A DNA stretch of 64,000 nt. Origin: Petrolisthes cinctipes (taxonomy: Eukaryota; Arthropoda; Malacostraca; Decapoda; Porcellanidae). The notes below the pieces were generated by a model, which had not been told where the DNA came from, did no database searches, and worked only from the letters and a program-made list of their open reading frames with translations. Made by a program: the position numbers and the translations under genes. The stretch covers positions 176,001-240,000 of the forward strand of contig JAWQEG010000289.1 of NCBI GenBank assembly GCA_033782935.1, read 5' to 3'. This document shows, piece by piece, positions 21,204 to 57,015 of the stretch. Position 1 is the first letter of the stretch, and every line of letters starts with the position of its first letter.

Positions 21204-21375
21204 TGTTACGGAAACTAGTATCATGAAAGTATCCAAAGCAGGAGCTAATAATTGTAATGATTGTTCGCCGGCTCCTGGTTAGGGTATTTCTATATAAGGT
21301 TAAACGGGATGGAATTGGAGCAGATTCATAGTCACTACTGGTTCCGAAAACTGACTTCGAACATGGCAGATTTTC

Positions 21376-21407
21376 TATAAAAGCCAGGGTTTCTTGGGAG
21401 AAGTCAG
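21376..21407 (+). promoter_or_regulatory. Gypsy LTR core promoter (TATA and initiator)
   Basis: TATAAAA at 21376-21382 lies 30 bp upstream of the A (21406) of TCAG, matching the arthropod initiator TCAGT with normal TATA spacing. In undisturbed LTR2 and LTR3 the sequence continues TCAGTCAGTCTG. Here the LINE 5' end follows directly after TCAG, so transcription from this promoter would read into LINE unit B1 almost from its first base. The start site is predicted, not measured. Confidence 0.65.
21397..21407 (+). repeat. Array B left target-site duplication
   Basis: GGAGAAGTCAG at the end of the 5' LTR part. The uninterrupted LTRs (about 52655 and 56798) contain this sequence once; array B has it at five positions. 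Confidence 0.92.
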
Positions 21408-22075
21408 CATTATGCGTCCAGACTTTGTTGTGTCCAGACCTCGTCCTCGTTGTGCATAGCAACAACAGACACCAGTGCTGTTCGTGGAGTTACCTTGGTG
21501 TACCGAGGCCTCTTACCGGCAGTACTCTGTTGTTTCTTTGCCTTGGTAAAGTAATTGAGTAAAGTAAATTTGCAGCGTTTTGCTGCACTGCTGTGTACAC
21601 CTTCAGTGATTTGTTTTTTGCTGGAGGACAACCAGTAGTATATGGTAGCTAGTAGTTAGTTGTTCCCCACACCAGACCCACAGCACTCACTGCCTCAGGG
21701 GAAACCCTGTGGTAGGGAGGCCCAGTAGTCTGGTGCGTCATTTGGGCACCTCTTTTTCTTAAACTACTTTTTCTTCTATATTTTCCGTGCGACCTCCTGG
21801 GCCTACGGTTGTCTCTTGGCTGAGCAACGGTATTCGCTTGGGAGGTGGGTTCCTACTACACCACCCCTCGCATTAGGCAGGTTCGGTGGTGGGGAAGTTC
21901 CTTCCGCACAAACTCCGATCCCCTAGCTGGTACTGGAGAACGCCGCCAGGCTACCACTAGGGGGGGGCGAGTAAAGGTAACTTTTATTCCCTAAATTATT
22001 GTCCATTTTTGGGGGTTGATACAATAGTTCAGGGAGGTAGGTGAGTGTGCGAGGAGAGGGGTCGGACGTAGTCCG

Positions 22076-23440
22076 ATGCCCCGGATGGATGAACCCCCGA
22101 CTAGCCTCCCTCCTCCTCAAGGAGGGAGGTTAACGACCAAGGACCAAACTAGGACAATGGCTGACAATAATGGAACCCCTACGGCAGACAGACAAAGACA
22201 ACCTGATGTTAAAATTCCTCCTATGAATGCTCGCTATGTAAATATTAGATGTGTAGATGAGGGTCAGTCTCTCAAAAACTTTAACCCCTTTATCGTCAAA
22301 AAGGTCCTTGATGGTCAAGTGGGTGGCAGTCTTGCTGCTGCTAACAAGTTGCGTGATGGTAGTATCCTGGTGAAAGTACTGAAGGCATCCCAGGTTAAGG
22401 ATCTCCTTAAACTGACGCAAATTCATAACTTTAAGGTGAAAGCCACCATTCCAGTGGGGCCGAATACCTGTAAGGGCGTCATTTTCCATAGGGATTTGGC
22501 CGCTCTGGATGAGGCTGAAATTTTGGAAGGAATGAAGGACCAAGGCGTTGTTGATGTACAAAGTATGACCAGGATGAGAGAGAACAAGAGAGAGAAATTT
22601 GGCTTGTGTTTCCTGACTTTTGCTTCAGCACAGATTCCGGAAACTGTAAAGATTGGATATGAAATTGTTCACGTTAGACCATACATTCAGAAACCGATGC
22701 GTTGTTTCCGTTGCCAGAAATTCGGACACACAGCATTGAGGTGCTTTAATAAAGATTCATTCACTTGTGGTAAATGTGCAGGTAGACACGAGACTGAGTT
22801 GTGTTCAGAGACAGTCTTCAGGTGTGCTAATTGTGGCGGCCCCCACCAGGCAAGTGCAGGTGACTGCAGGAGCCTTAAAGTGGAGACTGAAGCAATGGCA
22901 TACATGAGGGCTCATGATGTTAGTTATGGTGAGGCAAAGAGGAAGGTGGAGGGGGTTAACCAAACTCCCACAATTTCCTATGCTGCAGCTATAACTGGCA
23001 ACACTGCTCCTGTAACTACAGCAAATGTTAACGTGGCTATCCAAGCTAAAGATAATGAAATTAAAGACTTGAAGGATACTGTAAACAAATTAACGCTGCT
23101 AGTAGAAAGTTTGACAAAGAAATTAGAAGTTGTTGAATCAACCCAGCAAAAGAAGCACCACAAGGCTGATGACACCGTATCAGCTTCAAAATCTCATGTT
23201 CTCGCTCAGGTGACTCCCATGAAGCCTACATCCGGGAGTCGTCCGGTTCGTCGCGAGACGAGCCGTTCGAGGACTGGCTCTGTACCTCATGGAGAGGAAC
23301 AGGCGATGGAGACTACCGTCGCGAAACCTGCCCGCGGGAGGTCCCCGGGAAGTGCAGAGGAGGAAGAGGGTCTTCCCTCCCAGCACAAAAAGGTTCGGCC
23401 AGACGAACAAGGCTCCAAGAAACCCCATAAACAGCGATAA
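22076..23440 (+). CDS. LINE ORF1: gag-like zinc-knuckle protein, unit B1
   Basis: 454 aa, open. Marker residues PTISYAAAITGNTAPVTTAN occur only here and in B3. Zinc knuckles (about 209-265), RRM-like region and coiled coil are unchanged. The first ATG follows the conserved GGACGTAGTCCGATGC context. Its stop overlaps the proposed ORF2 start. Confidence 0.93.
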   Translation: MPRMDEPPTSLPPPQGGRLTTKDQTRTMADNNGTPTADRQRQPDVKIPPMNARYVNIRCVDEGQSLKNFNPFIVKKVLDGQVGGSLAAANKLRDGSILVKVLKASQVKDLLKLTQIHNFKVKATIPVGPNTCKGVIFHRDLAALDEAEILEGMKDQGVVDVQSMTRMRENKREKFGLCFLTFASAQIPETVKIGYEIVHVRPYIQKPMRCFRCQKFGHTALRCFNKDSFTCGKCAGRHETELCSETVFRCANCGGPHQASAGDCRSLKVETEAMAYMRAHDVSYGEAKRKVEGVNQTPTISYAAAITGNTAPVTTANVNVAIQAKDNEIKDLKDTVNKLTLLVESLTKKLEVVESTQQKKHHKADDTVSASKSHVLAQVTPMKPTSGSRPVRRETSRSRTGSVPHGEEQAMETTVAKPARGRSPGSAEEEEGLPSQHKKVRPDEQGSKKPHKQR

Positions 23441-26400
23441 TCTTCGCGCTAACCATACTCCAATGGAACTGTCGAAGTCTTAGAGCTAGATTAAATGAAC
23501 TTAAACTTTTGGCTTGTTCTTACGCTGCCGATATTATTGCCCTTCAGGAAACTCATCTGAACGACCAAGTCGAAGACGAGGTTGTTCAGCTTCGGAACTA
23601 CAAGTTAATTAGGAGGGACCGTGGGGGGAGGGGTGGAGGTGGAGTGGCAATCTACATCCGCCATAACCTCCCTTTCACTGATGTGCCCTGTAATTTTCCT
23701 CTGGAAAGTGTCGCTTGCAGAGTAAAATTCGGTGGCACCTACCTGACTATCTGTTCTGTCTACTGTCCTCCTGATACAGTAACTTATGATGATGTTTTTG
23801 ATCTACAGGACAGTCTGCCCTGTAGAAAATTAATTGTAGGTGATTTTAATGCTCATCATACGTTATGGGGTTCCCTGCAGGATGACAGAAAGGGGGAACA
23901 GATGGCTAGGCTAATCAGTGATTCCAATTTGGTTCTTCTGAACGACGGTAGTCCGACGAGAGTTGATGATAATACTGGTAATTTTAGCGTCCTTGACCTA
24001 TCTCTGGTCTCCCCATCAATTGCAGCCTCTTGCCAGTGGCTACCCATTGATGACTCATTGGGAAGCGACCATTTTCCTATTGTGATTAAATTTAAAAGCG
24101 ACACTATTAAAGAGCCTTCAGCACCTAAATTTAACGTAAAAAAAGCAGACTGGGTGTCCTTCACAAAGGGTGTCAATATTGAAATTGTTGGAGAAACCAT
24201 TGATGATAAAGTAAATAATATTCAAGATAATATCCTCAAAGCCGCAATGGCAACAATTCCTAAGACTTCGGTAGATAGCGCAAAGCATAGAGTTCCATGG
24301 TGGACGCCAGATTGCCGCAGGGTACTGTGTGAGAGAAATAGAGCCTACAGGCTTTTCAAAAATCGCATTAGTGATGAGAACTTTCGCAAGTATAAACTTG
24401 CGAGAGCTAGGGCTCGTCGAACCATCAGACAAGCCAAACGAGACTCCTGGCGATGCTTTGTCTCTAGTATCAACAGTGAAACATCAATTTCCCAAGTCTG
24501 GTCCACTGTAAGAAAATTAAATAAGAAAAAAATCTCTAATAAAATTACCAACATCACTTTTAATAACATCAATTATGACGAACCTAGAGACATTGCTAAC
24601 GCCCTCGCCAGGCAGTTCTCTTTTGCTAGCAGCTCTGAAAATTACCATCCAGCTTTCCTGCCCATCAAGGAAGCATCAGAGCTGCAGCATATTGACTTTG
24701 CCACAGGAGATGAATTAGATTACAACAGTGATCTAACAATGCAAGAGCTTGTCCAAGCCCTAGGAGCCTGTAGTGGGACATCCCCAGGACCCGATGAGAT
24801 TCGGTATGAGATGATAAAGCATCTTGATCATGATTCCATGGTCAAGATGTTGCAAGTGTTTAACGAGATTTGGAGGGGTCACACCTTTCCAAACTCGTGG
24901 CACTTTGCACATGTCATTCCCATACCGAAAGGAGGGGGGGACCCCAGATCGACTTCATCGTATCGCCCTATTGCGCTCACAAGTTGCTTATGCAAGGTCA
25001 TGGAACGAATTGTTAATCGTAGGCTATTGCATTTTTTAAATTCCAGGAATTTGCTGGTTGACGAGCAGTGTGGCTTCCGTAAAGGTCGCCAGACGCTCGA
25101 TCAGCTAGTGAACCTGGAAGTTCATATTCAAGAGGCATTTGCCAAAAAACAATTTTTGATTGCAGTATTTTTAGACATTGAAAAAGCCTACGACATGACT
25201 TGGCGACATGGCCTCCTCAGGAAACTATATGCGATGGGATTACGCGGTAACCTGCCCCTTTTTGTTAAGAACTTCATTTCTGACAGAACTTTCTCTGTCA
25301 AGCTTTTTTCGGACACAGTCACTTTCTCGGACATATTTGTCCAGGCAAATGGGGTGCCCCAGGGGAGTGTTCTGTCTCCGACCTTATTTCTATGTATGAT
25401 CAATGACATTCTACCAGCTCCTCCTCGAAATCTTAAATACTCACTGTACGCCGACGACTGTGCGATATGGCACTCCAGCTGTAATGCAGAGTTTTCGGCA
25501 ACTCGGATCCAATTGGCACTGGATTTGATTCACAATTGGGGCCTCCAGTGGGGTTTTAAGTTTTCAGTAAGAAAGAGTGTAGGGGTTATTTTCACTCATA
25601 GGAAGAAGCCAGACGTCAGGCTGACTATGGGTGTCAACCCCCTACCTATTCAAAATTCGACTAAATTTCTTGGACTGCATTTTGACAGTCGATTGACATG
25701 GCGAGTCCATGTCAGTCAGTTAAAAATTAAATGTTTAAAAGCACTCAATTTGCTGAAGTGCATTTCTGGTACTCAATGGGGAGCAGATAGGAAGTCATTG
25801 CTAATGCTATATAAATCCCTGATTAGATCTAGAGTAGATTATGGGTCAATAGTGTATGGTTCGGCATCTGAGTCTGTGTTGAAAGGTTTCGATGTTGTGC
25901 AGAATGCGTGTTTGCGTGTGTGTCTTGGAGCCCTACGTTGCACTCGAATCGAGCGTCTAGAGGTGGAGTCACAAGTGCCTCCCCTCCGATTGAGACGAGA
26001 TCAACTACTATTAGTATATTGTGCTAAAAAATCCAGGGTGCCGAGTCATCTTCCCGGGAATGCCTTGCTACGGCAACAGCACCCGGGGGGCCATGGCGCT
26101 AGGCCCCTGGCAGAGGGACCGAGTCGTCCGTCCGGGAACCCCTGCGCCCCAGGGGGCACTGGCGTGAGGCCAATGGGGACCAGGCCCCAAGTTCAGGTAC
26201 CCGGGGAGCCGAGTCATCCTCCCGGTAATGCCTTGGTGAGGCATTTGCAGCTGGGGGGCCATGGCGATAGGCCCCCGGAAGGGCCGAGTTATCCGCCTGG
26301 GCGTCGCACGGCCCCGGAGAGCACTGGCGTGAGGTCCCTCAGAGCAAGACTCCACGACCTCGTAGAGTGTGTCGGTATAGAATTATCAACAATCGATTCC

Positions 26401-27360
26401 CTGGTTTTAGTAAATATTGCACCCTGGGTAACACCCCCCTTCACTATTGTGGATTCCTGGCTACCAGGGGTTAAATCCCGGGTGCCGGAGGTGGAGGTAC
26501 ACCAGAGGTTTCGAGAGATAATTGTTCAACATCTTTCATATTTCCATCTGTATACCGACGGTTCCAAGACGGATGAATGTGTGGGTGCAAGTGTATGGTC
26601 GACTGAATGTCAGTTAAGATTCAGACTGCCGATTCATACATCTATTTTTATTGCTGAACTTTTTGCTATTAATAAAGCTTTGGATTTTGCCCCATCGACG
26701 ACCCTCGATAGGATAGTTATTTTTACAGATTCATTAAGTTCACTTCAAGCTATTAAATCCTTAAATACAACTAACAACGAAATACAGGGTAATATCATTA
26801 GTAAGCTGTTTTGTGCCAATAAATCAATCAAGCTAATATGGGTACCTTCACATTATGGTATCTATGGCAATGAACAGGCTGATATACTAGCCGGGTCAAC
26901 TGTTGATCTGGACATTAGCATAGTCCGTACGGATCTCAGGTGTTTTGTTTCCCTCATTAAGTCTCGAATTCATCTCCTGTGGCAAAGGCAGTGGACCAGA
27001 TTAGACATCAGAAATAAAGTAAAAACACTTATCGAACCCTGGGCTACGTCATCATGGCGTAGTCGCAGGGACGAGGTGGTGTTGGCCCGTCTTAGGGTCA
27101 ATGCCACATGGTTCACCCACCTTGAACCATATGTAAATCGAAATTTTCCCCCTAATTGTCAATATTGCAATACAATTATGTCAATAAGTCATGTATTAAT
27201 TTTCTGCAATGAATTTGAAAATCAACGTAATAAAATTAAAAAATATTTCCAACTTAAAAAAATAGCTTTCACCATCAACAATTTACTAGCAGATGACAAG
27301 AATATTATAAACAAATTAATGAGTTTTCTGAGGGAGACAAAACTTTATGACCTTATATAA
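23437..27360 (+). CDS. LINE ORF2: APE-RT-RNase H polyprotein, unit B1 (intact)
   Basis: About 1307 residues, uninterrupted, with all endonuclease (QETH, GDFNAHH, GSDH), RT (FLDIEKAYD, GVPQGS, YADD) and RNase H (TDGS, AELFA, FTDS, GNEQAD) motifs. Shared with B3 only are EVHIQEAF, NLPLFVKN, HLQLGGHG, APESTGVR, VGASVWS and TTLDRIV. FAPSTT (for FALSTT) is unique. The C-terminal finger is NCQYCNTIMSISHVLIFC. It ends TTATATAA, where A0, A1 and B4 have TTATATAG, so the stop codon differs but not the length. Likely competent. Confidence 0.93.
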   Translation: MIFALTILQWNCRSLRARLNELKLLACSYAADIIALQETHLNDQVEDEVVQLRNYKLIRRDRGGRGGGGVAIYIRHNLPFTDVPCNFPLESVACRVKFGGTYLTICSVYCPPDTVTYDDVFDLQDSLPCRKLIVGDFNAHHTLWGSLQDDRKGEQMARLISDSNLVLLNDGSPTRVDDNTGNFSVLDLSLVSPSIAASCQWLPIDDSLGSDHFPIVIKFKSDTIKEPSAPKFNVKKADWVSFTKGVNIEIVGETIDDKVNNIQDNILKAAMATIPKTSVDSAKHRVPWWTPDCRRVLCERNRAYRLFKNRISDENFRKYKLARARARRTIRQAKRDSWRCFVSSINSETSISQVWSTVRKLNKKKISNKITNITFNNINYDEPRDIANALARQFSFASSSENYHPAFLPIKEASELQHIDFATGDELDYNSDLTMQELVQALGACSGTSPGPDEIRYEMIKHLDHDSMVKMLQVFNEIWRGHTFPNSWHFAHVIPIPKGGGDPRSTSSYRPIALTSCLCKVMERIVNRRLLHFLNSRNLLVDEQCGFRKGRQTLDQLVNLEVHIQEAFAKKQFLIAVFLDIEKAYDMTWRHGLLRKLYAMGLRGNLPLFVKNFISDRTFSVKLFSDTVTFSDIFVQANGVPQGSVLSPTLFLCMINDILPAPPRNLKYSLYADDCAIWHSSCNAEFSATRIQLALDLIHNWGLQWGFKFSVRKSVGVIFTHRKKPDVRLTMGVNPLPIQNSTKFLGLHFDSRLTWRVHVSQLKIKCLKALNLLKCISGTQWGADRKSLLMLYKSLIRSRVDYGSIVYGSASESVLKGFDVVQNACLRVCLGALRCTRIERLEVESQVPPLRLRRDQLLLVYCAKKSRVPSHLPGNALLRQQHPGGHGARPLAEGPSRPSGNPCAPGGTGVRPMGTRPQVQVPGEPSHPPGNALVRHLQLGGHGDRPPEGPSYPPGRRTAPESTGVRSLRARLHDLVECVGIELSTIDSLVLVNIAPWVTPPFTIVDSWLPGVKSRVPEVEVHQRFREIIVQHLSYFHLYTDGSKTDECVGASVWSTECQLRFRLPIHTSIFIAELFAINKALDFAPSTTLDRIVIFTDSLSSLQAIKSLNTTNNEIQGNIISKLFCANKSIKLIWVPSHYGIYGNEQADILAGSTVDLDISIVRTDLRCFVSLIKSRIHLLWQRQWTRLDIRNKVKTLIEPWATSSWRSRRDEVVLARLRVNATWFTHLEPYVNRNFPPNCQYCNTIMSISHVLIFCNEFENQRNKIKKYFQLKKIAFTINNLLADDKNIINKLMSFLRETKLYDLI

Positions 27361-27443
27361 ATTGATATAATAAAATGGATCCAATGGCTTAATGATCTTT
27401 GGCTATATGCCTCTGGTCGATAGCCAAGAAATCCAACAAGAAA

Positions 27444-27454
27444 GGAGAAGTCAG
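27444..27454 (+). repeat. Array B junction B1/B2
   Basis: GGAGAAGTCAG between tail CCAACAAGAAA of B1 and CATTATGCG of B2. Confidence 0.9.
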
Positions 27455-28122
27455 CATTATGCGTCCAGACTTTGTTGTGTCCAGACCTCGTCCTCGTTGT
27501 GCATAGCAACAACAGACACCAGTGCTGTTCGTGGAGTTACCTTGGTGTACCGAGGCCTCTTACCGGCAGTACTCTGTTGTTTCTTTGCCTTGGTAAAGTA
27601 ATTGAGTAAAGTAAATTTGCAGCGTTTTGCTGCACTGCTGTGTACACCTTCAGTGAATTGTTTTTTGCTGGAGGACAACCAGTAGTATATGGTAGCTAGT
27701 AGTTAGTTGTTCCCCACACCAGACCCACAGCACTCACTGCCTCAGGGGAAACCCTGTGGTAGGGGGGCCCAGTAGTCTGGTGCGTCATTTGGGCACCTCT
27801 TTTTCTTAAACTACTTTTTCTTCTATATTTTCCGTGCGACCTCCTGGGCCTACGGTTGTCTCTTGGCTGAGCAACGGTATTCGCTTGGGAGGTGGGTTCC
27901 TACTACACCACCCCTCGCATTAGGCAGGTTCGGTGGTGGGGAAGTTCCTTCCGCACAAACTCCGATCCCCTAGCTGGTACTGGAGAACGCCGCCAGGCTA
28001 CCACTAGGGGGGGGCGAGTAAAGGTAACTTTTATTCCCTAAATTATTGTCCATTTTTGGGGGTTGATACAATAGTTCAGGGAGGTAGGTGAGTGTGCGAG
28101 GAGAGGGGTCGGACGTAGTCCG

Positions 28123-29487
28123 ATGCCCCGGATGGATGAACCCCCGACTAGCCTCCCTCCTCCTCAAGGAGGGAGGTTAACGACCAAGGACCAAACTAGG
28201 ACAATGGCTGACAATAATGGAACCCCTACGGCAGACAGACAAAGACAACCTGATGTTAAAATTCCTCCTATGAATGCTCGCTATGTAAATATTAGATGTG
28301 TAGATGAGGGTCAGTCTCTCAAAAACTTTAACCCCTTTATCGTCAAAAAGGTCCTTGATGGTCAAGTGGGTGGCAGTCTTGCTGCTGCTAACAAGTTGCG
28401 TGATGGTAGTATCCTGGTGAAAGTACTGAAGGCATCCCAGGTTAAGGATCTCCTTAAACTGACGCAAATTCATAACTTTAAGGTGAAAGCCACCATTCCA
28501 GTGGGGCCGAATACCTGTAAGGGCGTCATTTTCCATAGGGATTTGGCCGCTCTGGATGAGGCTGAAATTTTGGAAGGAATGAAGGACCAAGGCGTTGTTG
28601 ATGTACAAAGTATGACCAGGATGAGAGAGAACAAGAGAGAGAAATTTGGCTTGTGTTTCCTGACTTTTGCTTCAGCACAGATTCCGGAAACTGTAAAGAT
28701 TGGATATGAAATTGTTCACGTTAGACCATACATTCAGAAACCGATGCGTTGTTTCCGTTGCCAGAAATTCGGACACACAGCATTGAGGTGCTTTAATAAA
28801 GATTCATTCACTTGTGGTAAATGTGCAGGTAGACACGAGACTGAGTTGTGTTCAGAGACAGTCTTCAGGTGTGCTAATTGTGGCGGCCCCCACCAGGCAA
28901 GTGCAGGTGACTGCAGGAGCCTTAAAGTGGAGACTGAAGCAATGGCATACATGAGGGCTCATGATGTTAGTTATGGTGAGGCAAAGAGGAAGGTGGAGGG
29001 GGTTAACCAAACTCCCACAGTTTCCTATGCTGCAGCTATAACTGGCACCACTGCTCCTGTAACTACAACAAATGTTAACGTGGCTATCCAAGCTAAAGAT
29101 AATGAAATTAAAGACTTGAAGGATACTGTAAACAAATTAACGTTGCTAGTAGAAAGTTTGACAAAGAAATTAGAAGTTGTTGAATCAACCCAGCAAAAGA
29201 AGCACCACAAAGCTGATGATACTGTATCAGCTTCAAAATCTCATGTTCTCGCTCAGGTGACTCCCATGAAGCCTACATCCGGGAGTCGTCCGGTTCGTCG
29301 CGAGACGAGCCGTTCGAGGACTGGCTCTGTACCTCGTGGAGAGGAACAGGCGATGGAGACTACCGTCGCGAAACCTGCCCGCGAGAGGTCCCCGGGAAGT
29401 GCAGGGGAGGAAGAGGGTCTTCCCTCCCAGCACAAAAAGGTTCGGCCAGACGAACAAGGCTCCAAGAAACCACATAAACAGCGATAA
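28123..29487 (+). CDS. LINE ORF1: gag-like zinc-knuckle protein, unit B2
   Basis: 454 aa, open. SVPRGEEQ and GSAGEEEG are shared with B4. PARERSPG (for PARGRSPG) is unique, in the Arg/Ser-rich tail and away from the zinc knuckles. The zinc-binding ligands are intact, so the protein could act in trans for other copies. Confidence 0.92.
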   Translation: MPRMDEPPTSLPPPQGGRLTTKDQTRTMADNNGTPTADRQRQPDVKIPPMNARYVNIRCVDEGQSLKNFNPFIVKKVLDGQVGGSLAAANKLRDGSILVKVLKASQVKDLLKLTQIHNFKVKATIPVGPNTCKGVIFHRDLAALDEAEILEGMKDQGVVDVQSMTRMRENKREKFGLCFLTFASAQIPETVKIGYEIVHVRPYIQKPMRCFRCQKFGHTALRCFNKDSFTCGKCAGRHETELCSETVFRCANCGGPHQASAGDCRSLKVETEAMAYMRAHDVSYGEAKRKVEGVNQTPTVSYAAAITGTTAPVTTTNVNVAIQAKDNEIKDLKDTVNKLTLLVESLTKKLEVVESTQQKKHHKADDTVSASKSHVLAQVTPMKPTSGSRPVRRETSRSRTGSVPRGEEQAMETTVAKPARERSPGSAGEEEGLPSQHKKVRPDEQGSKKPHKQR

Positions 29488-33407: not shown

Positions 33408-33503
33408 ATTGATATAATAAAATGGATCCAATGGCTTAATGATCTTTGGCTATATGCCTCTGGTCGATAGCCAAGAAATCCAACAAGGAAGGAAATCCAA
33501 CAA

Positions 33504-33514
33504 GGAGAAGTCAG
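33504..33514 (+). repeat. Array B junction B2/B3
   Basis: GGAGAAGTCAG after the long tail of B2 and before CATTATGCG of B3. Confidence 0.9.
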
Positions 33515-35547: not shown

Positions 35548-38500
35548 TCTTCGCGCTAACCATACTCCAATGGAACTGTCGAAGTCTTAGAGCTAGATTA
35601 AATGAACTTAAACTTTTGGCTTGTTCTTACGCTGCCGATATTATTGCCCTTCAGGAAACTCATCTGAACGACCAAGTCGAAGACGAGGTTGTTCAGCTTC
35701 AGAACTACAAGTTAATTAGGAGGGACCGTGGGGGGAGGGGTGGAGGTGGAGTGGCAATCTACATCCGCCATAACCTCCCTTTCACTGATGTGCCCTGTAA
35801 TTTTCCTCTGGAAAGTGTCGCTTGCAGAGTAAAATTCGGTGGCACCTACCTGACTATCTGTTCTGTCTACTGTCCTCCTGATACAGTAACTTATGATGAT
35901 GTTTTTGATCTACAGGACAGTCTGCCCTGTAGAAAATTAATTGTAGGTGATTTTAATGCTCATCATACGTTATGGGGTTCCCTGCAGGATGACAGAAAGG
36001 GGGAACAGATGGCTAGGCTAATCAGTGATTCCAATTTGGTTCTTCTGAACGACGGTAGTCCGACGAGAGTTGATGATAATACTGGTAATTTTAGCGTCCT
36101 TGACCTATCTCTGGTCTCCCCATCAATTGCAGCCTCTTGCCAGTGGCTACCCATTGATGACTCATTGGGAAGCGACCATTTTCCTATTGTGATTAAATTT
36201 AAAAGCGACACTATTAAAGAGCCTTCAGCACCTAAATTTAACGTAAAAAAAGCAGACTGGGTGTCCTTCACAAAGGGTGTCAATATTGAAATTGTTGGAG
36301 AAACCATTGATGATAAAGTAAATAATATTCAAGATAATATCCTCAAAGCCGCAATGGCAACAATTCCTAAGACTTCGGTAGATAGCGCAAAGCATAGAGT
36401 TCCATGGTGGACGCCAGATTGCCGCAGGGTACTGTGTGAGAGGAATAGAGCCTACAGGCTTTTCAAAAATCGCATTAGTGATGAGAACTTTCGCAAGTAT
36501 AAACTTGCGAGAGCTAGGGCTCGTCGAACCATCAGACAAGCCAAACGAGACTCCTGGCGATGCTTTGTCTCTAGTATCAACAGTGAAACATCAATTTCCC
36601 AAGTCTGGTCCACTGTAAGAAAATTAAATAAGAAAAAAATCTCTAATAAAATTACCAACATCACTTTTAATAACATCAATTATGACGAACCTAGAGACAT
36701 TGCTAACGCCCTCGCCAGGCAGTTCTCTTTTGCTAGCAGCTCTGAAAATTACCATCCAGCTTTCCTGCCCATCAAGGAAGCATCAGAGCTGCAGCATATT
36801 GACTTTGCCACAGGAGATGAATTAGATTACAACAGTGATCTAACAATGCAAGAGCTTGTCCAAGCCCTAGGAGCCTGTAGTGGGACATCCCCAGGACCCG
36901 ATGAGATTCGGTATGAGATGATAAAGCATCTTGATCATGATTCCATGGTCAAGATGTTGCAAGTGTTTAACGAGATTTGGAGGGGTCACACCTTTCCAAA
37001 CTCGTGGCACTTTGCACATGTCATTCCCATACCGAAAGGAGGGGGGGACCCCAGATCGACTTCATCGTATCGCCCTATTGCGCTCACAAGTTGCTTATGC
37101 AAGGTCATGGAACGAATTGTTAATCGTAGGCTATTGCATTTTTTAAATTCCAGGAATTTGCTGGTTGACGAGCAGTGTGGCTTCCGTAAAGGTCGCCAGA
37201 CGCTCGATCAGCTAGTGAACCTGGAAGTTCATATTCAAGAGGCATTTGCCAAAAAACAATTTTTGATTGCAGTATTTTTAGACATTGAAAAAGCCTACGA
37301 CATGACTTGGCGACATGGCCTCCTCAGGAAACTATATGCGATGGGATTACGCGGTAACCTGCCCCTTTTTGTTAAGAACTTCATTTCTGACAGAACTTTC
37401 TCTGTCAAGCTTTTTTCGGACACAGTCACTTTCTCGGACATATTTGTCCAGGCAAATGGGGTGCCCCAGGGGAGTGTTCTGTCTCCGACCTTATTTCTAT
37501 GTATGATCAATGACATTCTACCAGCTCCTCCTCGAAATCTTAAATACTCACTGTACGCCGACGACTGTGCGATATGGCACTCCAGCTGTAATGCAGAGTT
37601 TTCGGCAACTCGGATCCAATTGGCACTGGATTTGATTCACAATTGGGGCCTCCAGTGGGGTTTTAAGTTTTCAGTAAGAAAGAGTGTAGGGGTTATTTTC
37701 ACTCATAGGAAGAAGCCAGACGTCAGGCTGACTATGGGTGTCAACCCCCTACCTATTCAAAATTCGACTAAATTTCTTGGACTGCATTTTGACAGTCGAT
37801 TGACATGGCGAGTCCATGTCAGTCAGTTAAAAATTAAATGTTTAAAAGCACTCAATTTGCTGAAGTGCATTTCTGGTACTCAATGGGGAGCAGATAGGAA
37901 GTCATTGCTAATGCTATATAAATCCCTGATTAGATCTAGAGTAGATTATGGGTCAATAGTGTATGGTTCGGCATCTGAGTCTGTGTTGAAAGGTTTCGAT
38001 GTTGTGCAGAATGCGTGTTTGCGTGTGTGTCTTGGAGCCCTACGTTGCACTCGAATCGAGCGTCTAGAGGTGGAGTCACAAGTGCCTCCCCTCCGATTGA
38101 GACGAGATCAACTACTATTAGTATATTGTGCTAAAAAATCCAGGGTGCCGAGTCATCTTCCCGGGAATGCCTTGCTACGGCAACTGCACCCGGGGGGCCA
38201 TGGCGCTAGGCCCCTGGCAGAGGGACCGAGTCGTCCGTCCGGGAACCCCTGCGCCCCAGGGGGCACTGGCGTGAGGCCAATGGGGACCAGGCCCCAAGTT
38301 CAGGTACCCGGGGAGCCGAGTCATCCTCCCGGTAATGCCTTGGTGAGGCATTTGCAGCTGGGGGGCCATGGCGATAGGCCCCCGGAAGGGCCGAGTTATC
38401 CGCCTGGGCGTCGCACGGCCCCGGAGAGCACTGGCGTGAGGTCCCTCAGAGCAAGACTCCACGACCTCGTAGAGTGTGTCGGTATAGAATTATCAACAAT

Positions 38501-39467
38501 CGATTCCCTGGTTTTAGTAAATATTGCACCCTGGGTAACACCCCCCTTCACTATTGTGGATTCCTGGCTACCAGGGGTTAAATCCCGGGTGCCGGAGGTG
38601 GAGGTACACCAGAGGTTTCGAGAGATAATTGTTCAACATCTTTCATATTTCCATCTGTATACCGACGGTTCCAAGACGGATGAATGTGTGGGTGCAAGTG
38701 TATGGTCGACTGAATGTCAGTTAAGATTCAGACTGCCGATTCATACATCTATTTTTATTGCTGAACTTTTTGCTATTAATAAAGCTTTGGATTTTGCCCT
38801 ATCGACGACCCTCGATAGGATAGTTATTTTTACAGATTCATTAAGTTCACTTCAAGCTATTAAATCCTTAAATACAACTAACAACGAAATACAGGGTAAT
38901 ATCATTAGTAAGCTGTTTTGTGCCAATAAATCAATCAAGCTAATATGGGTACCTTCACATTATGGTATCTATGGCAATGAACAGGCTGATATACTAGCCG
39001 GGTCAACTGTTGATCTGGACATTAGCATAGTCCGTACGGATCTCAGGTGTTTTGTTTCCCTCATTAAGTCTCGAATTCATCTCCTGTGGCAAAGGCAGTG
39101 GACCAGATTAGACATCAGAAATAAAGTAAAAACACTTATCGAACCCTGGGCTACGTCATCATGGCGTAGTCGCAGGGACGAGGTGGTGTTGGCCCGTCTT
39201 AGGGTCAATGCCACATGGTTCACCCACCTTGAACCATATGTAAATCGAAATTTTCCCCCTAATTGTCAATATTGCAATACAATTATGTCAATAAGTCATG
39301 TATTAATTTTCTGCAATGAATTTGAAAATCAACGTAATAAAATTAAAAAATATTTCCAACTTAAAAAAATAGCTTTCACCATCAACAATTTACTAGCAGA
39401 TGACAAGAATATTATAAACAAATTAATGAGTTTTCTGAGGGAGACAAAACTTTATGACCTTATATAA
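35544..39467 (+). CDS. LINE ORF2: APE-RT-RNase H polyprotein, unit B3 (intact)
   Basis: About 1307 residues, open. It differs from B1 at very few places: VVQLQNYKL (B1 VVQLRNYKL), LLRQLHPGG in the GC-rich linker (B1 LLRQQHPGG) and FALSTTLDR (B1 FAPSTTLDR). Catalytic motifs of all three enzymes are complete. Such low divergence over 3.9 kb indicates a very recent common origin with B1. Confidence 0.93.
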   Translation: MIFALTILQWNCRSLRARLNELKLLACSYAADIIALQETHLNDQVEDEVVQLQNYKLIRRDRGGRGGGGVAIYIRHNLPFTDVPCNFPLESVACRVKFGGTYLTICSVYCPPDTVTYDDVFDLQDSLPCRKLIVGDFNAHHTLWGSLQDDRKGEQMARLISDSNLVLLNDGSPTRVDDNTGNFSVLDLSLVSPSIAASCQWLPIDDSLGSDHFPIVIKFKSDTIKEPSAPKFNVKKADWVSFTKGVNIEIVGETIDDKVNNIQDNILKAAMATIPKTSVDSAKHRVPWWTPDCRRVLCERNRAYRLFKNRISDENFRKYKLARARARRTIRQAKRDSWRCFVSSINSETSISQVWSTVRKLNKKKISNKITNITFNNINYDEPRDIANALARQFSFASSSENYHPAFLPIKEASELQHIDFATGDELDYNSDLTMQELVQALGACSGTSPGPDEIRYEMIKHLDHDSMVKMLQVFNEIWRGHTFPNSWHFAHVIPIPKGGGDPRSTSSYRPIALTSCLCKVMERIVNRRLLHFLNSRNLLVDEQCGFRKGRQTLDQLVNLEVHIQEAFAKKQFLIAVFLDIEKAYDMTWRHGLLRKLYAMGLRGNLPLFVKNFISDRTFSVKLFSDTVTFSDIFVQANGVPQGSVLSPTLFLCMINDILPAPPRNLKYSLYADDCAIWHSSCNAEFSATRIQLALDLIHNWGLQWGFKFSVRKSVGVIFTHRKKPDVRLTMGVNPLPIQNSTKFLGLHFDSRLTWRVHVSQLKIKCLKALNLLKCISGTQWGADRKSLLMLYKSLIRSRVDYGSIVYGSASESVLKGFDVVQNACLRVCLGALRCTRIERLEVESQVPPLRLRRDQLLLVYCAKKSRVPSHLPGNALLRQLHPGGHGARPLAEGPSRPSGNPCAPGGTGVRPMGTRPQVQVPGEPSHPPGNALVRHLQLGGHGDRPPEGPSYPPGRRTAPESTGVRSLRARLHDLVECVGIELSTIDSLVLVNIAPWVTPPFTIVDSWLPGVKSRVPEVEVHQRFREIIVQHLSYFHLYTDGSKTDECVGASVWSTECQLRFRLPIHTSIFIAELFAINKALDFALSTTLDRIVIFTDSLSSLQAIKSLNTTNNEIQGNIISKLFCANKSIKLIWVPSHYGIYGNEQADILAGSTVDLDISIVRTDLRCFVSLIKSRIHLLWQRQWTRLDIRNKVKTLIEPWATSSWRSRRDEVVLARLRVNATWFTHLEPYVNRNFPPNCQYCNTIMSISHVLIFCNEFENQRNKIKKYFQLKKIAFTINNLLADDKNIINKLMSFLRETKLYDLI

Positions 39468-39563
39468 ATTGATATAATAAAATGGATCCAATGGCTTAAT
39501 GATCTTTGGCTATATGCCTCTGGTCGATAGCCAAGAAATCCAACAAGGAAGGAAATCCAACAA

Positions 39564-39574
39564 GGAGAAGTCAG
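39564..39574 (+). repeat. Array B junction B3/B4
   Basis: GGAGAAGTCAG after a tail identical to that of B2. Confidence 0.9.
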
Positions 39575-40242
39575 CATTATGCGTCCAGACTTTGTTGTGT
39601 CCAGACCTCGTCCTCGTTGTGCATAGCAACAACAGACACCAGTGCTGTTCGTGGAGTTACCTTGGTGTACCGAGGCCTCTTACCGGCAGTACTCTGTTGT
39701 TTCTTTGCCTTGGTAAAGTAATTGAGTAAAGTAAATTTGCAGCGTTTTGCTGCACTGCTGTGTACACCTTCAGTGATTTGTTTTTTGCTGGAGGACAACC
39801 AGTAGTTTATGGTAGCTAGTAGTTAGTTGTTCCCCACACCAGACCCGCAGCACTCACTGCCTCAGGGGAAACCCTGTGGTAGGGAGGCCCAGTAGTCTGG
39901 TGCGTCATTTGGGCACCTCTTTTTCTTAAACTACTTTTTCTTCTATATTTTCCGTGCGACCTCCTGGGCCTACGGTTGTCTCTTGGCTGAGCAACGGTAT
40001 TCGCTTGGGAGGTGGGTTCCTACTACACCACCCCTCGCATTAGGCAGGTTCGGTGGTGGGGAAGTTCCTTCCGCACAAACTCCGATCCCCTAGCTGGTAC
40101 TGGAGAACGCCGCCAGGCTACCACTAGGGGGGGGCGAGTAAAGGAAACTTTTATTCCCTAAATTATTGTCCATTTTTGGGGGTTGATACAATAGTTCAGG
40201 GAGGTAGGTGAGTGTGCGAGGAGAGGGGTCGGACGTAGTCCG

Positions 40243-41607
40243 ATGCCCCGGATGGATGAACCCCCGACTAGCCTCCCTCCTCCTCAAGGAGGGAGGTTAA
40301 CGACCAAGGACCAAACTAGGACAATGGCTGACAATAATGGAACCCCTACGGCAGACAGACAAAGACAACCTGATGTTAAAATTCCTCCTATGAATGCTCG
40401 CTATGTAAATATTAGATGTGTAGATGAGGGTCAGTCTCTCAAAAACTTTAACCCCTTTATCGTCAAAAAGGTCCTTGATGGTCAAGTGGGTGGCAGTCTT
40501 GCTGCTGCTAACAAGTTGCGTGATGGTAGTATCCTGGTGAAAGTACTGAAGGCATCCCAGGTTAAGGATCTCCTTAAACTGACGCAAATTCATAACTTTA
40601 AGGTGAAAGCCACCATTCCAGTGGGGCCGAATACCTGTAAGGGCGTCATTTTCCATAGGGATTTGGCCGCTCTGGATGAGGCTGAAATTTTGGAAGGAAT
40701 GAAGGACCAAGGCGTTGTTGATGTACAAAGTATGACCAGGATGAGAGAGAACAAGAGAGAGAAATTTGGCTTGTGTTTCCTGACTTTTGCTTCAGCACAG
40801 ATTCCGGAAACTGTAAAGATTGGATATGAAATTGTTCACGTTAGACCATACATTCAGAAACCGATGCGTTGTTTCCGTTGCCAGAAATTCGGACACACAG
40901 CATTGAGGTGCTTTAATAAAGATTCATTCACTTGTGGTAAATGTGCAGGTAGACACGAGACTGAGTTGTGTTCAGAGACAGTCTTCAGGTGTGCTAATTG
41001 TGGCGGCCCCCACCAGGCAAGTGCAGGTGACTGCAGGAGCCTTAAAGTGGAGACTGAAGCAATGGCATACATGAGGGCTCATGATGTTAGTTATGGTGAG
41101 GCAAAGAGGAAGGTGGAGGGGGTTAACCAAACTCCCACAGTTTCCTATGCTGCAGCTATAACTGGCACCACTGCTCCTGTAACTACAACAAATGTTAACG
41201 TGGCTATCCAAGCTAAAGATAATGAAATTAAAGACTTGAAGGATACTGTAAACAAATTAACGTTGCTAGTAGAAAGTTTGACAAAGAAATTAGAAGTTGT
41301 TGAATCAACCCAGCAAAAGAAGCACCACAAAGCTGATGACACCGTATCAGCTTCAAAATCTCATGTTCTCGCTCAGGTGACTCCCATGAAGCCTACATCC
41401 GGGAGTCGTCCGGTTCGTCGCGAGACGAGCCGTTCGAGGACTGGCTCTGTACCTCGTGGAGAGGAACAGGCGATGGAGACTACCGTCGCGAAACCTGCCC
41501 GCGGGAGGTCCCCGGGAAGTGCAGGGGAGGAAGAGGGTCTTCCCTCCCAGCACAAAAAGGTTCGGCCAGACGAACAAGGCTCCAAGAAACCCCATAAACA
41601 GCGATAA
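40243..41607 (+). CDS. LINE ORF1: gag-like zinc-knuckle protein, unit B4
   Basis: 454 aa, open. SVPRGEEQ and GSAGEEEG link it to B2, while PARGRSPG is the common form. Three CCHC-type knuckles and the coiled-coil region are intact. Confidence 0.93.
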   Translation: MPRMDEPPTSLPPPQGGRLTTKDQTRTMADNNGTPTADRQRQPDVKIPPMNARYVNIRCVDEGQSLKNFNPFIVKKVLDGQVGGSLAAANKLRDGSILVKVLKASQVKDLLKLTQIHNFKVKATIPVGPNTCKGVIFHRDLAALDEAEILEGMKDQGVVDVQSMTRMRENKREKFGLCFLTFASAQIPETVKIGYEIVHVRPYIQKPMRCFRCQKFGHTALRCFNKDSFTCGKCAGRHETELCSETVFRCANCGGPHQASAGDCRSLKVETEAMAYMRAHDVSYGEAKRKVEGVNQTPTVSYAAAITGTTAPVTTTNVNVAIQAKDNEIKDLKDTVNKLTLLVESLTKKLEVVESTQQKKHHKADDTVSASKSHVLAQVTPMKPTSGSRPVRRETSRSRTGSVPRGEEQAMETTVAKPARGRSPGSAGEEEGLPSQHKKVRPDEQGSKKPHKQR

Positions 41608-44600
41608 TCTTCGCGCTAACCATACTCCAATGGAACTGTCGAAGTCTTAGAGCTAGATTAAACGAACTTAAACTTTTGGCTTGTTCTTACGCTGCCGATA
41701 TTATTGCCCTTCAGGAAACTCATCTGAACGACCAAGTCGAAGACGAGGTTGTTCAGCTTCGGAACTACAAGTTAATTAGGAGGGACCGTGGGGGGAGGGG
41801 TGGAGGTGGAGTGGCAATCTACATCCGCCATAACCTCCCTTTCACTGATGTGCCCTGTAATTTTCCTCTGGAAAGTGTCGCTTGCAGAGTAAAATTCGGT
41901 GGCACCTACCTGACTATCTGTTCTGTCTACTGTCCTCCTGATACAGTAACTTATGATGATGTTTTTGATCTACAGGACAGTCTGCCCTGTAGAAAATTAA
42001 TTGTAGGTGATTTTAATGCTCATCATACGTTATGGGGTTCCCTGCAGGATGACAGAAAGGGGGAACAGATGGCTAGGCTAATCGGTGATTCCAATTTGGT
42101 TCTTCTGAACGACGGTAGTCCGACGAGAGTTGATGATAATACTGGTAATTTTAGCGTTCTTGACCTATCTCTGGTCTCCCCATCAATTGCAGCCTCTTGC
42201 CAGTGGCTACCCATTGATGACTCTTTAGGAAGCGACCATTTTCCTATTGTGATTAAATTTAAAAGCGACACTATTAAAGAGCCTTCAGCACCTAAATTTA
42301 ACGTAAAAAAAGCAGACTGGGTGTCCTTCACAAAGGGTGTCAATATTGAAATTGTTGGAGAAACCATTGATGATAAAGTAAATAATATTCAAGATAATAT
42401 CCTCAAAGCCGCAATGGCAACAATTCCTAAGACTTCGGTAGATAGCGCAAAGCATAGAGTTCCATGGTGGACGCCAGATTGCCGCAGGGTACTGTGTGAG
42501 AGGAATAGAGCCTACAGGCTTTTCAAAAATCGCATTAGTGATGAGAACTTTCGCAAGTATAAACTTGCGAGAGCTAGGGCTCGTCGAACCATCAGACAAG
42601 CCAAACGAGACTCCTGGCGATGCTTTGTCTCTAGTATCAATAGTGAAACATTAATTTCCCAAGTCTGGTCCACTGTAAGAAAATTGAATAAGAAAAAAAT
42701 ATCTAATAAAATTACCAACATCACTTTTAATAACATCAATTATGACGAACCTAGAGACATTGCTAACGCCCTCGCCAGGCAGTTCTCTTTTGCTAGCAGC
42801 TCTGAAAATTACCATCCAGCTTTCCTGCCCATCAAGGAAGCATCAGAGCTGCAGCATATTGACTTTGCCACAGGAGATGAATTAGATTACAACAGTGATC
42901 TAACAATGCAAGAGCTTGTCCAAGCCCTAGGAGCCTGTAGTGGGACATCCCCAGGACCCGATGAGATTCGGTATGAGATGATAAAGCATCTTGATCATGA
43001 TTCCATGGTCAAGATGTTGCAGGTGTTTAACGAGATTTGGAGGGGTCACACCTTTCCAAACTCGTGGCACTTTGCACATGTCATTCCCATACCGAAAGGA
43101 GGGGGGGACCCCAGATCGACTTCATCGTATCGCCCTATTGCGCTCACAAGTTGCTTATGCAAGGTCATGGAACGAATTGTTAATCGTAGGCTATTGCATT
43201 TTTTAAATTCCAGGAATTTGCTGGTTGACGAGCAGTGTGGCTTCCGTAAAGGTCGCCAGACGCTCGATCAGCTAGTAAACCTGGAAGTTCAAATTCAAGA
43301 GGCATTTGCCAAAAAACAATTTTTGATTGCAGTATTTTTAGACATTGAAAAAGCCTACGACATGACTTGGCGACATGGCCTCCTCAGGAAACTATATGCG
43401 ATGGGATTACGCGGTAACCTGCCCTTTTTTGTTAAGAACTTTATTTCTGACAGAACTTTCTCTGTCAAGCTTTTTTCGGACACAGTAACTTTCTCGGACA
43501 TATTTGTCCAGGCAAATGGGGTGCCCCAGGGGAGTGTTCTGTCTCCGACATTATTTCTATGTATGATCAATGACATTCTACCAGCTCCTCCTCGAAATCT
43601 TAAATACTCACTGTACGCCGACGACTGTGCGATATGGCACTCCAGCTGTAATGCAGAGTTTTCGGCAACTCGGATCCAATTGGCACTGGATTTGATTCAC
43701 AATTGGGGCCTCCAGTGGGGTTTTAAGTTTTCAGTAAGAAAGAGTGTAGGGGTTATTTTCACTCATAGGAAGAAGCCAGACGTCAGGCTGACTATGGGTG
43801 TCAACCCCCTACCTATTCAAAATTCTACTAAATTTCTTGGACTGCATTTTGACAGTCGACTGACATGGCGAGTCCATGTCAGTCAGTTAAAAATTAAATG
43901 TTTAAAAGCACTCAATTTGCTGAAGTGCATTTCTGGTACTCAATGGGGAGCAGATAGGAAGTCATTGCTAATGCTATATAAATCCCTGATTAGATCTAGA
44001 GTAGATTATGGGTCAATAGTGTATGGTTCGGCATCTGAGTCTGTGTTGAAAGGTTTGGATGTTGTGCAGAATGCGTGTTTGCGTGTGTGTCTTGGAGCCC
44101 TACGTTGCACTCGAATCGAGCGTCTAGAGGTGGAGTCACAAGTGCCTCCCCTCCGATTGAGACGAGATCAACTACTATTAGTATACTGTGCTAAGAAATC
44201 CAGGGTGCCGAGTCATCTTCCCGGGAATGCCTTGCTACGGCAACAGCACCCGGGGGGCCATGGCGCTAGGCCCCTGGCAGAGAGACCGAGTCGTCCGTCC
44301 GGGAACCCCTGCGCCCCAGGGGGCACTGGCGTGAGGCCAATGGGGACCAGGCCCCAAGTTCAGGTACCCGGGGAGCCGAGTCATCCTCCCGGTAATGCCT
44401 TGGTGAGGCATTTGCAGCCGGGGGGCCATGGCGATAGGCCCCCGGAAGGGCCGAGTTATCCGCCTGGGCGTCGCACGGCCCCGGAGGGCACTGGCGTGAG
44501 GTCCCTCAGAGCAAGACTCCACGACCTCGTAGAGTGTGTCGGTATAGAATTATCAACAATCGATTCCCTGGTTTTAGTAAATATTGCACCCTGGGTAACA

Positions 44601-45527
44601 CCCCCCTTCACTATTGTGGATTCCTGGCTACCAGGGGTTAAATCCCGGGTGCCGGAGGTGGAGGTACACCAGAGGTTTCGTGAGATAATTGTTCAACATC
44701 TTTCATATTTCCATCTGTATACCGACGGCTCCAAGACGGATGAATGTGTGGGTGCAGGTGTATGGTCGACTGAATGTCAGTTAAGATTCAGACTGCCGAT
44801 TCATACATCTATTTTTATTGCAGAACTTTTTGCTATTAATAAAGCTTTGGATTTTGCCTTATCGACGACCCATGATAGGATAGTTATCTTTACAGATTCA
44901 TTAAGTTCACTTCAAGCTATTAAATCCTTAAATACAATTAACAACGAAATACAGGGTAATATCATTAGTAAGCTGTTTTGTGCCAATAAATCAATCAAGC
45001 TAATATGGGTACCTTCACATTATGATATCTATGGCAATGAACAGGCTGATATACTAGCCGGGTCAACTGTTGATCTGGACCTTAGCATAGTCCGTACGGA
45101 TCTCAGGTGTTTTGTTTCCCTCATTAAGTCTCGAATTCATCTCCTGTGGCAAAGGCAGTGGACCAGATTAGACATCAGAAATAAAGTAAGAACAGTTATT
45201 GAACCCTGGGCTACGTCGTCATGGCGTAGTCGCAGGGACGAGGTGGTGTTGGCCCGTCTTAGGGTCAATGCCACATGGCTAACCCACCTAGAACCTTATG
45301 TAAACAGAAACTTTCCCCCCATGTGCCAATCATGCAATACAATAATGTCAATAGCCCATCTGCTAATTTTTTGCACAGAATACGAAAATCAACGTAACAA
45401 AATTAAAAAATATTTCCAACTTAAAAAAATAGCTTTCACTATCAACAACTTACTAGCAGATGACAAGAATATTATAAACAAATTAATGAGTTTTCTGAGG
45501 GAGACAAAACTTTATGACCTTATATAG
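41604..45527 (+). CDS. LINE ORF2: APE-RT-RNase H polyprotein, unit B4 (intact)
   Basis: About 1307 residues, open. RT motifs FLDIEKAYD, GVPQGS and YADD are present. Private changes are SETLISQ (others SETSISQ), AERPSRP in the linker (others AEGPSRP), LNTINNE (others LNTTNNE) and, inside RNase H, WVPSHYDIYGNEQAD, where others have SHYGIYG. Catalytic His and Asp remain, but the Gly-to-Asp change beside them could weaken RNase H. The C-terminal block is a separate allele (MCQSCNTIMSIAHLLIFC). Confidence 0.93.
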   Translation: MIFALTILQWNCRSLRARLNELKLLACSYAADIIALQETHLNDQVEDEVVQLRNYKLIRRDRGGRGGGGVAIYIRHNLPFTDVPCNFPLESVACRVKFGGTYLTICSVYCPPDTVTYDDVFDLQDSLPCRKLIVGDFNAHHTLWGSLQDDRKGEQMARLIGDSNLVLLNDGSPTRVDDNTGNFSVLDLSLVSPSIAASCQWLPIDDSLGSDHFPIVIKFKSDTIKEPSAPKFNVKKADWVSFTKGVNIEIVGETIDDKVNNIQDNILKAAMATIPKTSVDSAKHRVPWWTPDCRRVLCERNRAYRLFKNRISDENFRKYKLARARARRTIRQAKRDSWRCFVSSINSETLISQVWSTVRKLNKKKISNKITNITFNNINYDEPRDIANALARQFSFASSSENYHPAFLPIKEASELQHIDFATGDELDYNSDLTMQELVQALGACSGTSPGPDEIRYEMIKHLDHDSMVKMLQVFNEIWRGHTFPNSWHFAHVIPIPKGGGDPRSTSSYRPIALTSCLCKVMERIVNRRLLHFLNSRNLLVDEQCGFRKGRQTLDQLVNLEVQIQEAFAKKQFLIAVFLDIEKAYDMTWRHGLLRKLYAMGLRGNLPFFVKNFISDRTFSVKLFSDTVTFSDIFVQANGVPQGSVLSPTLFLCMINDILPAPPRNLKYSLYADDCAIWHSSCNAEFSATRIQLALDLIHNWGLQWGFKFSVRKSVGVIFTHRKKPDVRLTMGVNPLPIQNSTKFLGLHFDSRLTWRVHVSQLKIKCLKALNLLKCISGTQWGADRKSLLMLYKSLIRSRVDYGSIVYGSASESVLKGLDVVQNACLRVCLGALRCTRIERLEVESQVPPLRLRRDQLLLVYCAKKSRVPSHLPGNALLRQQHPGGHGARPLAERPSRPSGNPCAPGGTGVRPMGTRPQVQVPGEPSHPPGNALVRHLQPGGHGDRPPEGPSYPPGRRTAPEGTGVRSLRARLHDLVECVGIELSTIDSLVLVNIAPWVTPPFTIVDSWLPGVKSRVPEVEVHQRFREIIVQHLSYFHLYTDGSKTDECVGAGVWSTECQLRFRLPIHTSIFIAELFAINKALDFALSTTHDRIVIFTDSLSSLQAIKSLNTINNEIQGNIISKLFCANKSIKLIWVPSHYDIYGNEQADILAGSTVDLDLSIVRTDLRCFVSLIKSRIHLLWQRQWTRLDIRNKVRTVIEPWATSSWRSRRDEVVLARLRVNATWLTHLEPYVNRNFPPMCQSCNTIMSIAHLLIFCTEYENQRNKIKKYFQLKKIAFTINNLLADDKNIINKLMSFLRETKLYDLI

Positions 45528-45616
45528 ATTGATATAATAAAATGGATCCAATGGCTTAATGATCTTTGGCTATATGCCTCTGGTCGATAGCCAAGAAATC
45601 CAACAAGACAAGGCAA

Positions 45617-45627
45617 GGAGAAGTCAG
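45617..45627 (+). repeat. Array B right target-site duplication
   Basis: GGAGAAGTCAG followed by TCAGTCTGTGAACAG, which is the natural continuation of the LTR (compare 52660 and 56803). Confidence 0.93.

Positions 45628-56979: not shown

Positions 56980-57015
<36 letters not shown>

Follow-up and report, generated by a model that had tools for sequence, protein, structure and literature searches.

A LINE of the crab Petrolisthes cinctipes that very probably integrates at the start site of TATA promoters and stacks there into arrays

What causes copies of a retroelement to pile up head to tail on one point of another element, each parted from the next by the same few base pairs? The question is raised by a stretch of 64,000 nucleotides from Petrolisthes cinctipes (contig JAWQEG010000289.1, positions 176,001 to 240,000; hereafter the window, whose coordinates are used unless the contig is named), in which four units of a long interspersed nuclear element (LINE), each about 6.05 kb long, lie in tandem within a long terminal repeat (LTR) of a Gypsy element. 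The original prediction held that the boundaries of this array (array 2) all carry one 11-bp target sequence, present once in each intact LTR, and read the element as a LINE specific to that one start-site sequence. The repeat is as described, since GGAGAAGTCAG is matched exactly at all five boundaries (three internal junctions and the two outer edges) and once in each of the two intact LTRs, and with at most one mismatch there are nine matches where 1.19 are expected, nine being a count that none of 100 shuffles reaches. The specificity, however, appears to be of another kind: an APE-type LINE very probably integrates, by target-primed reverse transcription (TPRT) and in sense orientation, at the start site of TATA promoters, where its copies stack.

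Evidence for a position rather than a sequence begins within the locus itself. A second four-unit array (array 1), absent from the original prediction, occupies window positions 1-15526 and reaches left to contig position 169555, with units starting at contig positions 169555, 175607, 181660, and 187710 (A0 to A3) and CTCACAGTCA as its junction repeat. The sequence to its right (15534-15842) is 99.7% identical to a sister LTR lying about 5.4 kb upstream of the array, which holds the empty site (contig 164095-164104, ...TATAAAAGAAGCAGACTTGGGTCTCACAGTCA/GTCTCTG...), and the blast pieces to the left and right of the array overlap in this sister LTR by exactly 10 bp, that is, by the target duplication. 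The host elements belong to two Gypsy families, 64% alike in their reverse-transcriptase regions and with different LTR sequences, yet the distance from the T of TATA down to the LINE start is 32 nt in both. In array 2, the units (B1 to B4) all start with CATTATGCG, and its upstream LTR half is 100% identical to 56598-56801 and 98.5% identical to 52455-52658, in the two LTRs with empty sites (Table 1).

Copies elsewhere in the genome repeat this picture. Searching 1.484 Gb in 9385 contigs with the 25-base 5' end of the LINE returned 498 places at up to three mismatches (control, 0); among the matches listed, 27 of the 34 same-strand successive spacings below 20 kb measure 6.01-6.06 kb, and 21 of those 27 lie beyond this locus. 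Drawing on the 100 listed matches of the 498, all with exact 5' ends, we read 98 upstream flanks (30 loci, 60 stretches, and the 8 units of the locus), which a simple sequence rule sorted into 58 that end in the 3' end of the same LINE, 15 that end in a poly-A run, and 25 that end in neither. In 18 of these 25, a TATA starts 27-44 bp upstream, while eleven 18-bp control windows in the same flanks hold 0-5 each; enrichment was judged by such windows since the flanks are not independent and the bins were not chosen beforehand. A gap pattern (TATA-N14..44-LINE) gave 131 rows (control, 0), of which the 100 listed amount to 81 distinct places once 19 repeat rows of one TATATA run are left out. Three of these places have the LINE's own 3' end upstream, and 72 of the other 78 lie 27-42 from TATA. 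By their first 24 nt the 78 places form 38 clusters, of which 35 include a place at 27-42, although the clustering is rough, some clusters being related and C1130 (gap 15) having joined LTR1 merely through its short sequence.

These counts bear directly on the form given to the idea by the original prediction, in which the LINE is specific to one LTR start-site sequence and its target duplication is re-cut wherever present. The same 11-mer at every junction of array 2, the two TATA-flanked copies in the same LTR2 promoter (C1324 and C1424), and the Drosophila R1 arrays described with target duplications between units (PMC2718515, in excerpt) would all fit it, but among the rows listed the LINE stands equally spaced below TATA in 35 distinct sequences, which refutes sequence specificity, and array 1 has a different junction repeat, so that we regard this form as highly improbable. 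Collecting genomic copies and checking their flanks, as had been proposed, thus yielded unrelated sequences that share a position relative to TATA, so that the outcome named beforehand as a refutation applies to the sequence and not to the position. An LTR start site, as judged by the spacing from TATA, and re-insertion at a regenerated target both survive, the target being a promoter position rather than one sequence, and only the copy in register with TATA would be re-cut.

Where they can be identified, the targets seem to be mainly promoters of other retroelements, although host-gene promoters are possible too. Target T11 has 49 empty copies (up to three mismatches), including nine same-strand pairs 3.8-4.3 kb apart, and target T1 has 47, among them 15 pairs at a spacing of about 5.7 kb; both look like LTRs, which with LTR1 and LTR2 would make four LTR families. 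When nine upstream open reading frames (ORFs) were searched with Pfam, the only matches were to RNase H, at L110 and L128, and to a cold-shock domain, at L114, the latter (PF00313, 2.1e-13) lying about 450 bp upstream of the target promoter. Other targets lie downstream of frames (L105, L119, L129) that are Penelope-like by our own reading, with no Pfam family. Histone promoters were considered as targets and set aside, tblastn with H3 and H4 finding no match in the 1.5 kb upstream of seven copies (upstream sides only).

The duplications define the geometry of insertion. In the seven promoters where both edges are known (one with GATAAAA in place of TATA), the duplication is 9-11 bp long; counting from the T, it begins at nt 21-23 and ends at nt 30-33. 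With the T at -31, this spans about -11/-9 to -1/+2. The 3' sides were fetched for 20 copies with no LINE upstream, and all 12 in which the 3' end is visible carry the target repeat, followed by genomic flank in seven and by another LINE unit in five. The tails consist of short runs, for instance of CAAG or TAG repeats. The extra nucleotides at 5' junctions are short, often C/A-rich, and variable within one promoter (two other LTR2 copies have CCCC and CAC, respectively, after GGAGAAGTCAG), as is expected of separate TPRT events.

On this basis, a four-step cycle can be proposed. A resident TATA promoter would be transcribed; the ORF2 protein would nick it 20-22 nt after the T, at about -10, a position that is observed, on what TPRT suggests is the template strand; TPRT would follow, with a second cut about 10 nt further, near +1, as the duplication indicates; and the promoter, left intact ahead of the new copy, would receive the next copy at the same place, as the arrays suggest. 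Because TATA stays upstream, the site would remain a target and copies would stack into arrays. Transcription of the new LINE by the resident promoter should moreover begin at about the first base of the LINE, so that host promoters would drive LINE transcription. Within the LINE, AGACC occurs at +28 to +32 from the A of CATTA (counted by hand), presumably a match to the consensus of the downstream promoter element, and the LINE may thereby complete a promoter composed of TATA, start site, and downstream element.

What would the integration machinery recognize? The LINE protein could bind the TATA motif directly, its endonuclease cutting at a fixed distance downstream with no transcription factors involved. 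In 33 promoters, one each hand-picked from the clusters, the only clearly conserved positions are TATA, its next two bases, and C/G at nt 9, and sequence-reading endonucleases do exist in APE LINEs (TRAS1, R1, and Tx1L, cited in PMC8869645, in excerpt). TATA alone is nevertheless common in DNA of such base composition, it is absent at the expected distance from seven of the 25 flanks, and a cut made 20-22 nt away with no sequence preference (apart from the conserved positions, nothing exceeds 0.2 bit at nt 10 to 34, positions beyond nt 29 partly containing 5' extras of LINE copies) better fits a complex that measures distance. Direct recognition is hence possible but rather unlikely, and the cue would more probably be the pre-initiation complex or the open promoter than the TATA sequence alone.

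Several observations weigh against start-site integration, or against the breadth we give it. That the cut site is the true transcription start is deduced from the spacing to TATA. Seven of the 25 flanks have no TATA at that spacing: one has GATAAAA there (L052) and six have none at 27-44 bp (L028, L067, L073, L081, L093, L094), although a 9-bp duplication is present at L067, and L081 resembles, by eye, the 5' sequence of the LINE itself. The 25 flanks comprise only about 17 distinct sequences by eye. The gap pattern itself demands a TATA, so that it measures spacing and diversity, not frequency, and six of its 78 places lie outside 27-42 (at 15, 18, 18, 19, 26, and 44). The 3' end is not visible in eight of the 20 fetched 3' sides. 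Sampling was confined to exact, intact 5' ends. This last choice is also what speaks for random insertion followed by survivorship, whereby only copies below TATA promoters would stay active and be seen at full length; such filtering would, however, neither fix the edges of the duplication relative to TATA within 2-3 nt nor stack many units on one point, and we consider it very improbable. A final difficulty concerns age. If insertion recurs next to TATA, the TATA-proximal unit should be the youngest: private changes in the first 3.7 kb fit this in array 1 (A0 5, A2 19, A3 23) and run contrary to it in array 2 (B1 5, B2 8, B4 2), and the counts over all columns (A0 10, A2 53, A3 32; B1 13, B2 11, B4 27) include the weight of a divergent 3' segment. 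Array 1 thus shows the predicted order, whereas array 2 does not do so clearly.

How the arrays grew can be read from their units. Unequal crossing-over or rolling amplification of a single inserted unit could account for some of their features: A1 differs from A2 by one change over about 2 kb and then from A0 by three, with junctions alike on its two sides; B3 is a mosaic; and tails are common to A0/A1 and to B2/B3. Three different 3' tails are nevertheless kept in each of the two arrays. Those of array 2, which follow ...GAAATCCAACAAG, are AAA, GAAGGAAATCCAACAA (twice), and ACAAGGCAA, in agreement with the original prediction up to the point at which a tail is taken to start. The units moreover differ by up to 2%: array 2 units show 7 to 83 pairwise substitutions per 6 kb (B3 and B1, 7 in 6047; B4 against B1, B2, and B3, 83, 72, and 82), and A0 is nearer to B1 of the other array (45 differences) than to A2 of its own (114). 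They also differ under purifying selection, dN/dS being 0.10-0.35 in 17 of 19 ratios from 10 of the 28 unit pairs (the exceptions being 0.73 for B1/B4 ORF1, with 7 changes, and 0 for A1/A2 ORF1, with one change) and neutral probabilities being as low as 1e-11, while pairs with few changes are uninformative. Such selection indicates that the divergence accumulated in active lineages and not inside the array. We did not use FastTree branch lengths, because recombinant units are mixed in.

Crossing-over as the sole cause, or amplification of one unit, is accordingly most unlikely, being ruled out by the varied tails and the unit divergence. As a secondary process it is accepted, one exchange being visible in each array: A1 is a hybrid of A2 and A0 whose junction is duplicated, and B3 is a mosaic. 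Given the variable tails and 5' extras, units that can be as unlike within an array as between arrays, and purifying selection, most units in both arrays are independent insertions, and the arrays appear to have grown mainly by repeated insertion into the regenerated target. Misassembly of a single unit is also unlikely, with 7-83 substitutions between the units of array 2 and spacings of about 6.0 kb recurring on other contigs. Elsewhere, LINE copies with one target repeat, CTCTTAATTT, extend over about 92 kb (G000:C188:2267221-2358998, minus strand), perhaps as a single very long array.

The LINE retains its coding capacity in several units. ORF1 (470 codons between stops) is open in all eight and carries three zinc-knuckle motifs by regular expression; ORF2 is open in A2, B1, B3, and B4, stopped in A0, A1, and B2, and deleted in A3. 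ORF2 matches an APE endonuclease (PF14529, 2.6e-21; PF03372, 1.7e-17), a reverse transcriptase (PF00078, 1.9e-35), and RNase H (PF00075, 8.8e-13), with the TRAS1 endonuclease among the PDB matches (1wdu, 3.7e-09), and from its endonuclease and reverse transcriptase we classify the element as an APE-type LINE. RNase H behind the reverse transcriptase, together with the zinc knuckles of ORF1, is the domain set of the I group (I, Loa, Outcast, Nimb, and kin), as judged by which LINE clades carry RNase H. Pfam found no integrase in the LINE and the unit ends are not long direct repeats, so that it is not a Ty3-like LTR element. The closest organism-named match to ORF2 is a P. cinctipes protein (95% identity over 68% of ORF2), the hits listed include no reference of a named LINE clade, and no relative was confirmed by tblastn in the viral contig and genome contig collections.

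Start-site targeting could belong to a whole clade. The poly-A flanks resemble by eye the 3' ends of sister LINEs, and one upstream frame (L015) resembles by eye the LINE's RNase H region. Apparent sister LINEs precede targets that this LINE also uses, for example TTTGAAGTCGCG (L015, L018, and L085; in L017 it is this LINE) and TGAATAAACC (L060). Apparent poly-A sister families lie directly upstream of the LINE at L015, L018, L026, L038, L040, L060, L078, L084, and L085. A tentative extension, somewhat less likely than not, is that the clade formed by this LINE and its poly-A sisters inserts into RNA polymerase II promoters in their open state: the address would be the pre-initiation complex, the duplication from about -10 to +1 would mark the stretch melted at initiation, going by the extent of the bubble at that stage, and the LINE, with no promoter of its own upstream of +1, would parasitize the promoters of LTR and other retroelements, stacking since the promoter stays open.

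Table 1. Positions of the LINE units, target duplications, and host LTR parts in the window.
Feature	Position	Strand	Remarks
LINE unit A1, crossover hybrid	1..5640	+	start 393 bp left of window; first 2 kb from A2, remainder from A0
Array 1 target duplication CTCACAGTCA	5649..5658	+	then extra C
LINE unit A2	5660..11691	+	both ORFs open
Array 1 target duplication	11692..11701	+	then extra CATCCACA (11702-11709)
LINE unit A3	11710..15526	+	then tail CAAGAAG; internal deletion ~15287
Right copy, array 1 target duplication	15534..15543	+	
Downstream part of LTR 1	15544..15842	+	interrupted by another insertion
Upstream half of Gypsy LTR family 2, host of array 2	21204..21407	+	begins TGTTACGG
TATA box TATAAAAG of LTR 2	21376..21383	+	first T 32 nt above LINE start
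Left copy, 11-bp target duplication GGAGAAGTCAG	21397..21407	+	
LINE unit B1	21408..27440	+	then tail AAA; ORF1 22028-23440, ORF2 23431-27360, both open
Target duplication, junction B1/B2	27444..27454	+	
LINE unit B2	27455..33487	+	then tail GAAGGAAATCCAACAA; ORF2 stop at codon 757
Target duplication, junction B2/B3	33504..33514	+	
LINE unit B3, mosaic	33515..39547	+	B4-like start, B1-like body, B2-like tail
Target duplication, junction B3/B4	39564..39574	+	
LINE unit B4	39575..45607	+	then tail ACAAGGCAA; ORF1 40195-41607, ORF2 41598-45527
Right copy, target duplication of array 2	45617..45627	+	
Downstream half of LTR 2	45628..46022	+	45617-46352 98.1% identical to 52648-53384
Intact LTR 2	52455..53053	+	empty site 52648-52658
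Intact LTR 2	56598..57208	+	empty site 56791-56801

The surroundings of the arrays hold further elements. The sequence cutting LTR 1 (15839-16513) contains a 265-bp exact direct repeat and, by eye, a minus-strand reverse transcriptase. The Gypsy region at 46023-56597 is laid out as LTR, internal part, LTR, internal part, LTR, the second internal part being without a portion of the integrase region; it has a SCAN-domain gag, and its integrase frames (H2C2, rve) precede RVT_1, an order that we take to be that of Gmr1-like elements. A reverse-transcriptase frame at 59308-60636 (RVT_1, 2e-24) lies inside 57532-61328, flanked by 600-bp inverted repeats that are 99.2% identical, and an arthropod-type telomeric repeat tract, (GTTAG/TAACC)n, occurs within the contig at 61624-61903 and 62281-62320.

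To our knowledge, known LINE targets are either fixed sequences (rDNA, telomeric repeats, snRNA genes, microsatellites, a transposon) or RNA polymerase III genes. Zepp of Chlorella and HeT-A/TART of Drosophila form head-to-tail LINE arrays like those of the crab, but at chromosome ends and with no promoter target. TRAS and SART, whose targets are telomeric repeats, are, like the crab LINE, APE LINEs with target specificity; for the crab LINE, no telomeric repeat of the arthropod type, (TTAGG)n, was seen by eye at any junction read. Tx1L of Xenopus inserts into another transposon, at one transposon sequence, and the crab LINE likewise enters other elements, while using the promoters of many repeats. 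Transposons are also named among LINE targets in PMC4640811 (in excerpt). R1, the 28S rDNA LINE of arthropods, has the same array anatomy in Drosophila: it is an APE LINE whose tandem units are parted by the target duplication, as here, with extra nucleotides at the 5' junction, and the explanation given for its arrays is that a new copy enters the duplication in front of one already resident, at the 5' end of the latter (PMC2718515, in excerpt). R1 uses one 28S sequence, with a duplication of typically 14 bp, whereas the targets read for the crab LINE are promoters of other repeats, its duplication is 9-11 bp, and RNase H is present.

In the open-access literature, searched by titles and the starts of abstracts, with most subscription journals and bioRxiv preprints outside this scope, we found no LINE at polymerase II start sites. 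A LINE at one narrow position of many unrelated TATA promoters would explain at once its choice of target, the growth of its arrays, and its transcription with no upstream sequence of its own. Integration directed to promoters by a TPRT element would become open to direct test, start sites would be naturally marked in a genome that has no transcript maps, and there would be a lead toward a TPRT enzyme addressed by promoter state. Among LINEs, TRE5-A and NLTR-A of social amoebae are also aimed at promoters, and the TRE5-A ORF1 protein binds TFIIIB proteins, including the TATA-binding protein (TBP); these elements differ in belonging to the L1 clade and in using RNA polymerase III, their insertions lying upstream of tRNA genes by 40-54 bp for TRE5 and by 2-6 bp for NLTR-A (PMC5911963, in excerpt). 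The closest functional analogue is Ty3 of yeast, which integrates 1-4 nt from the transcription start via a TBP-containing factor (PMC5911963, in excerpt), although it is an LTR element that uses an integrase and targets RNA polymerase III genes; the crab LINE would be its polymerase II counterpart.

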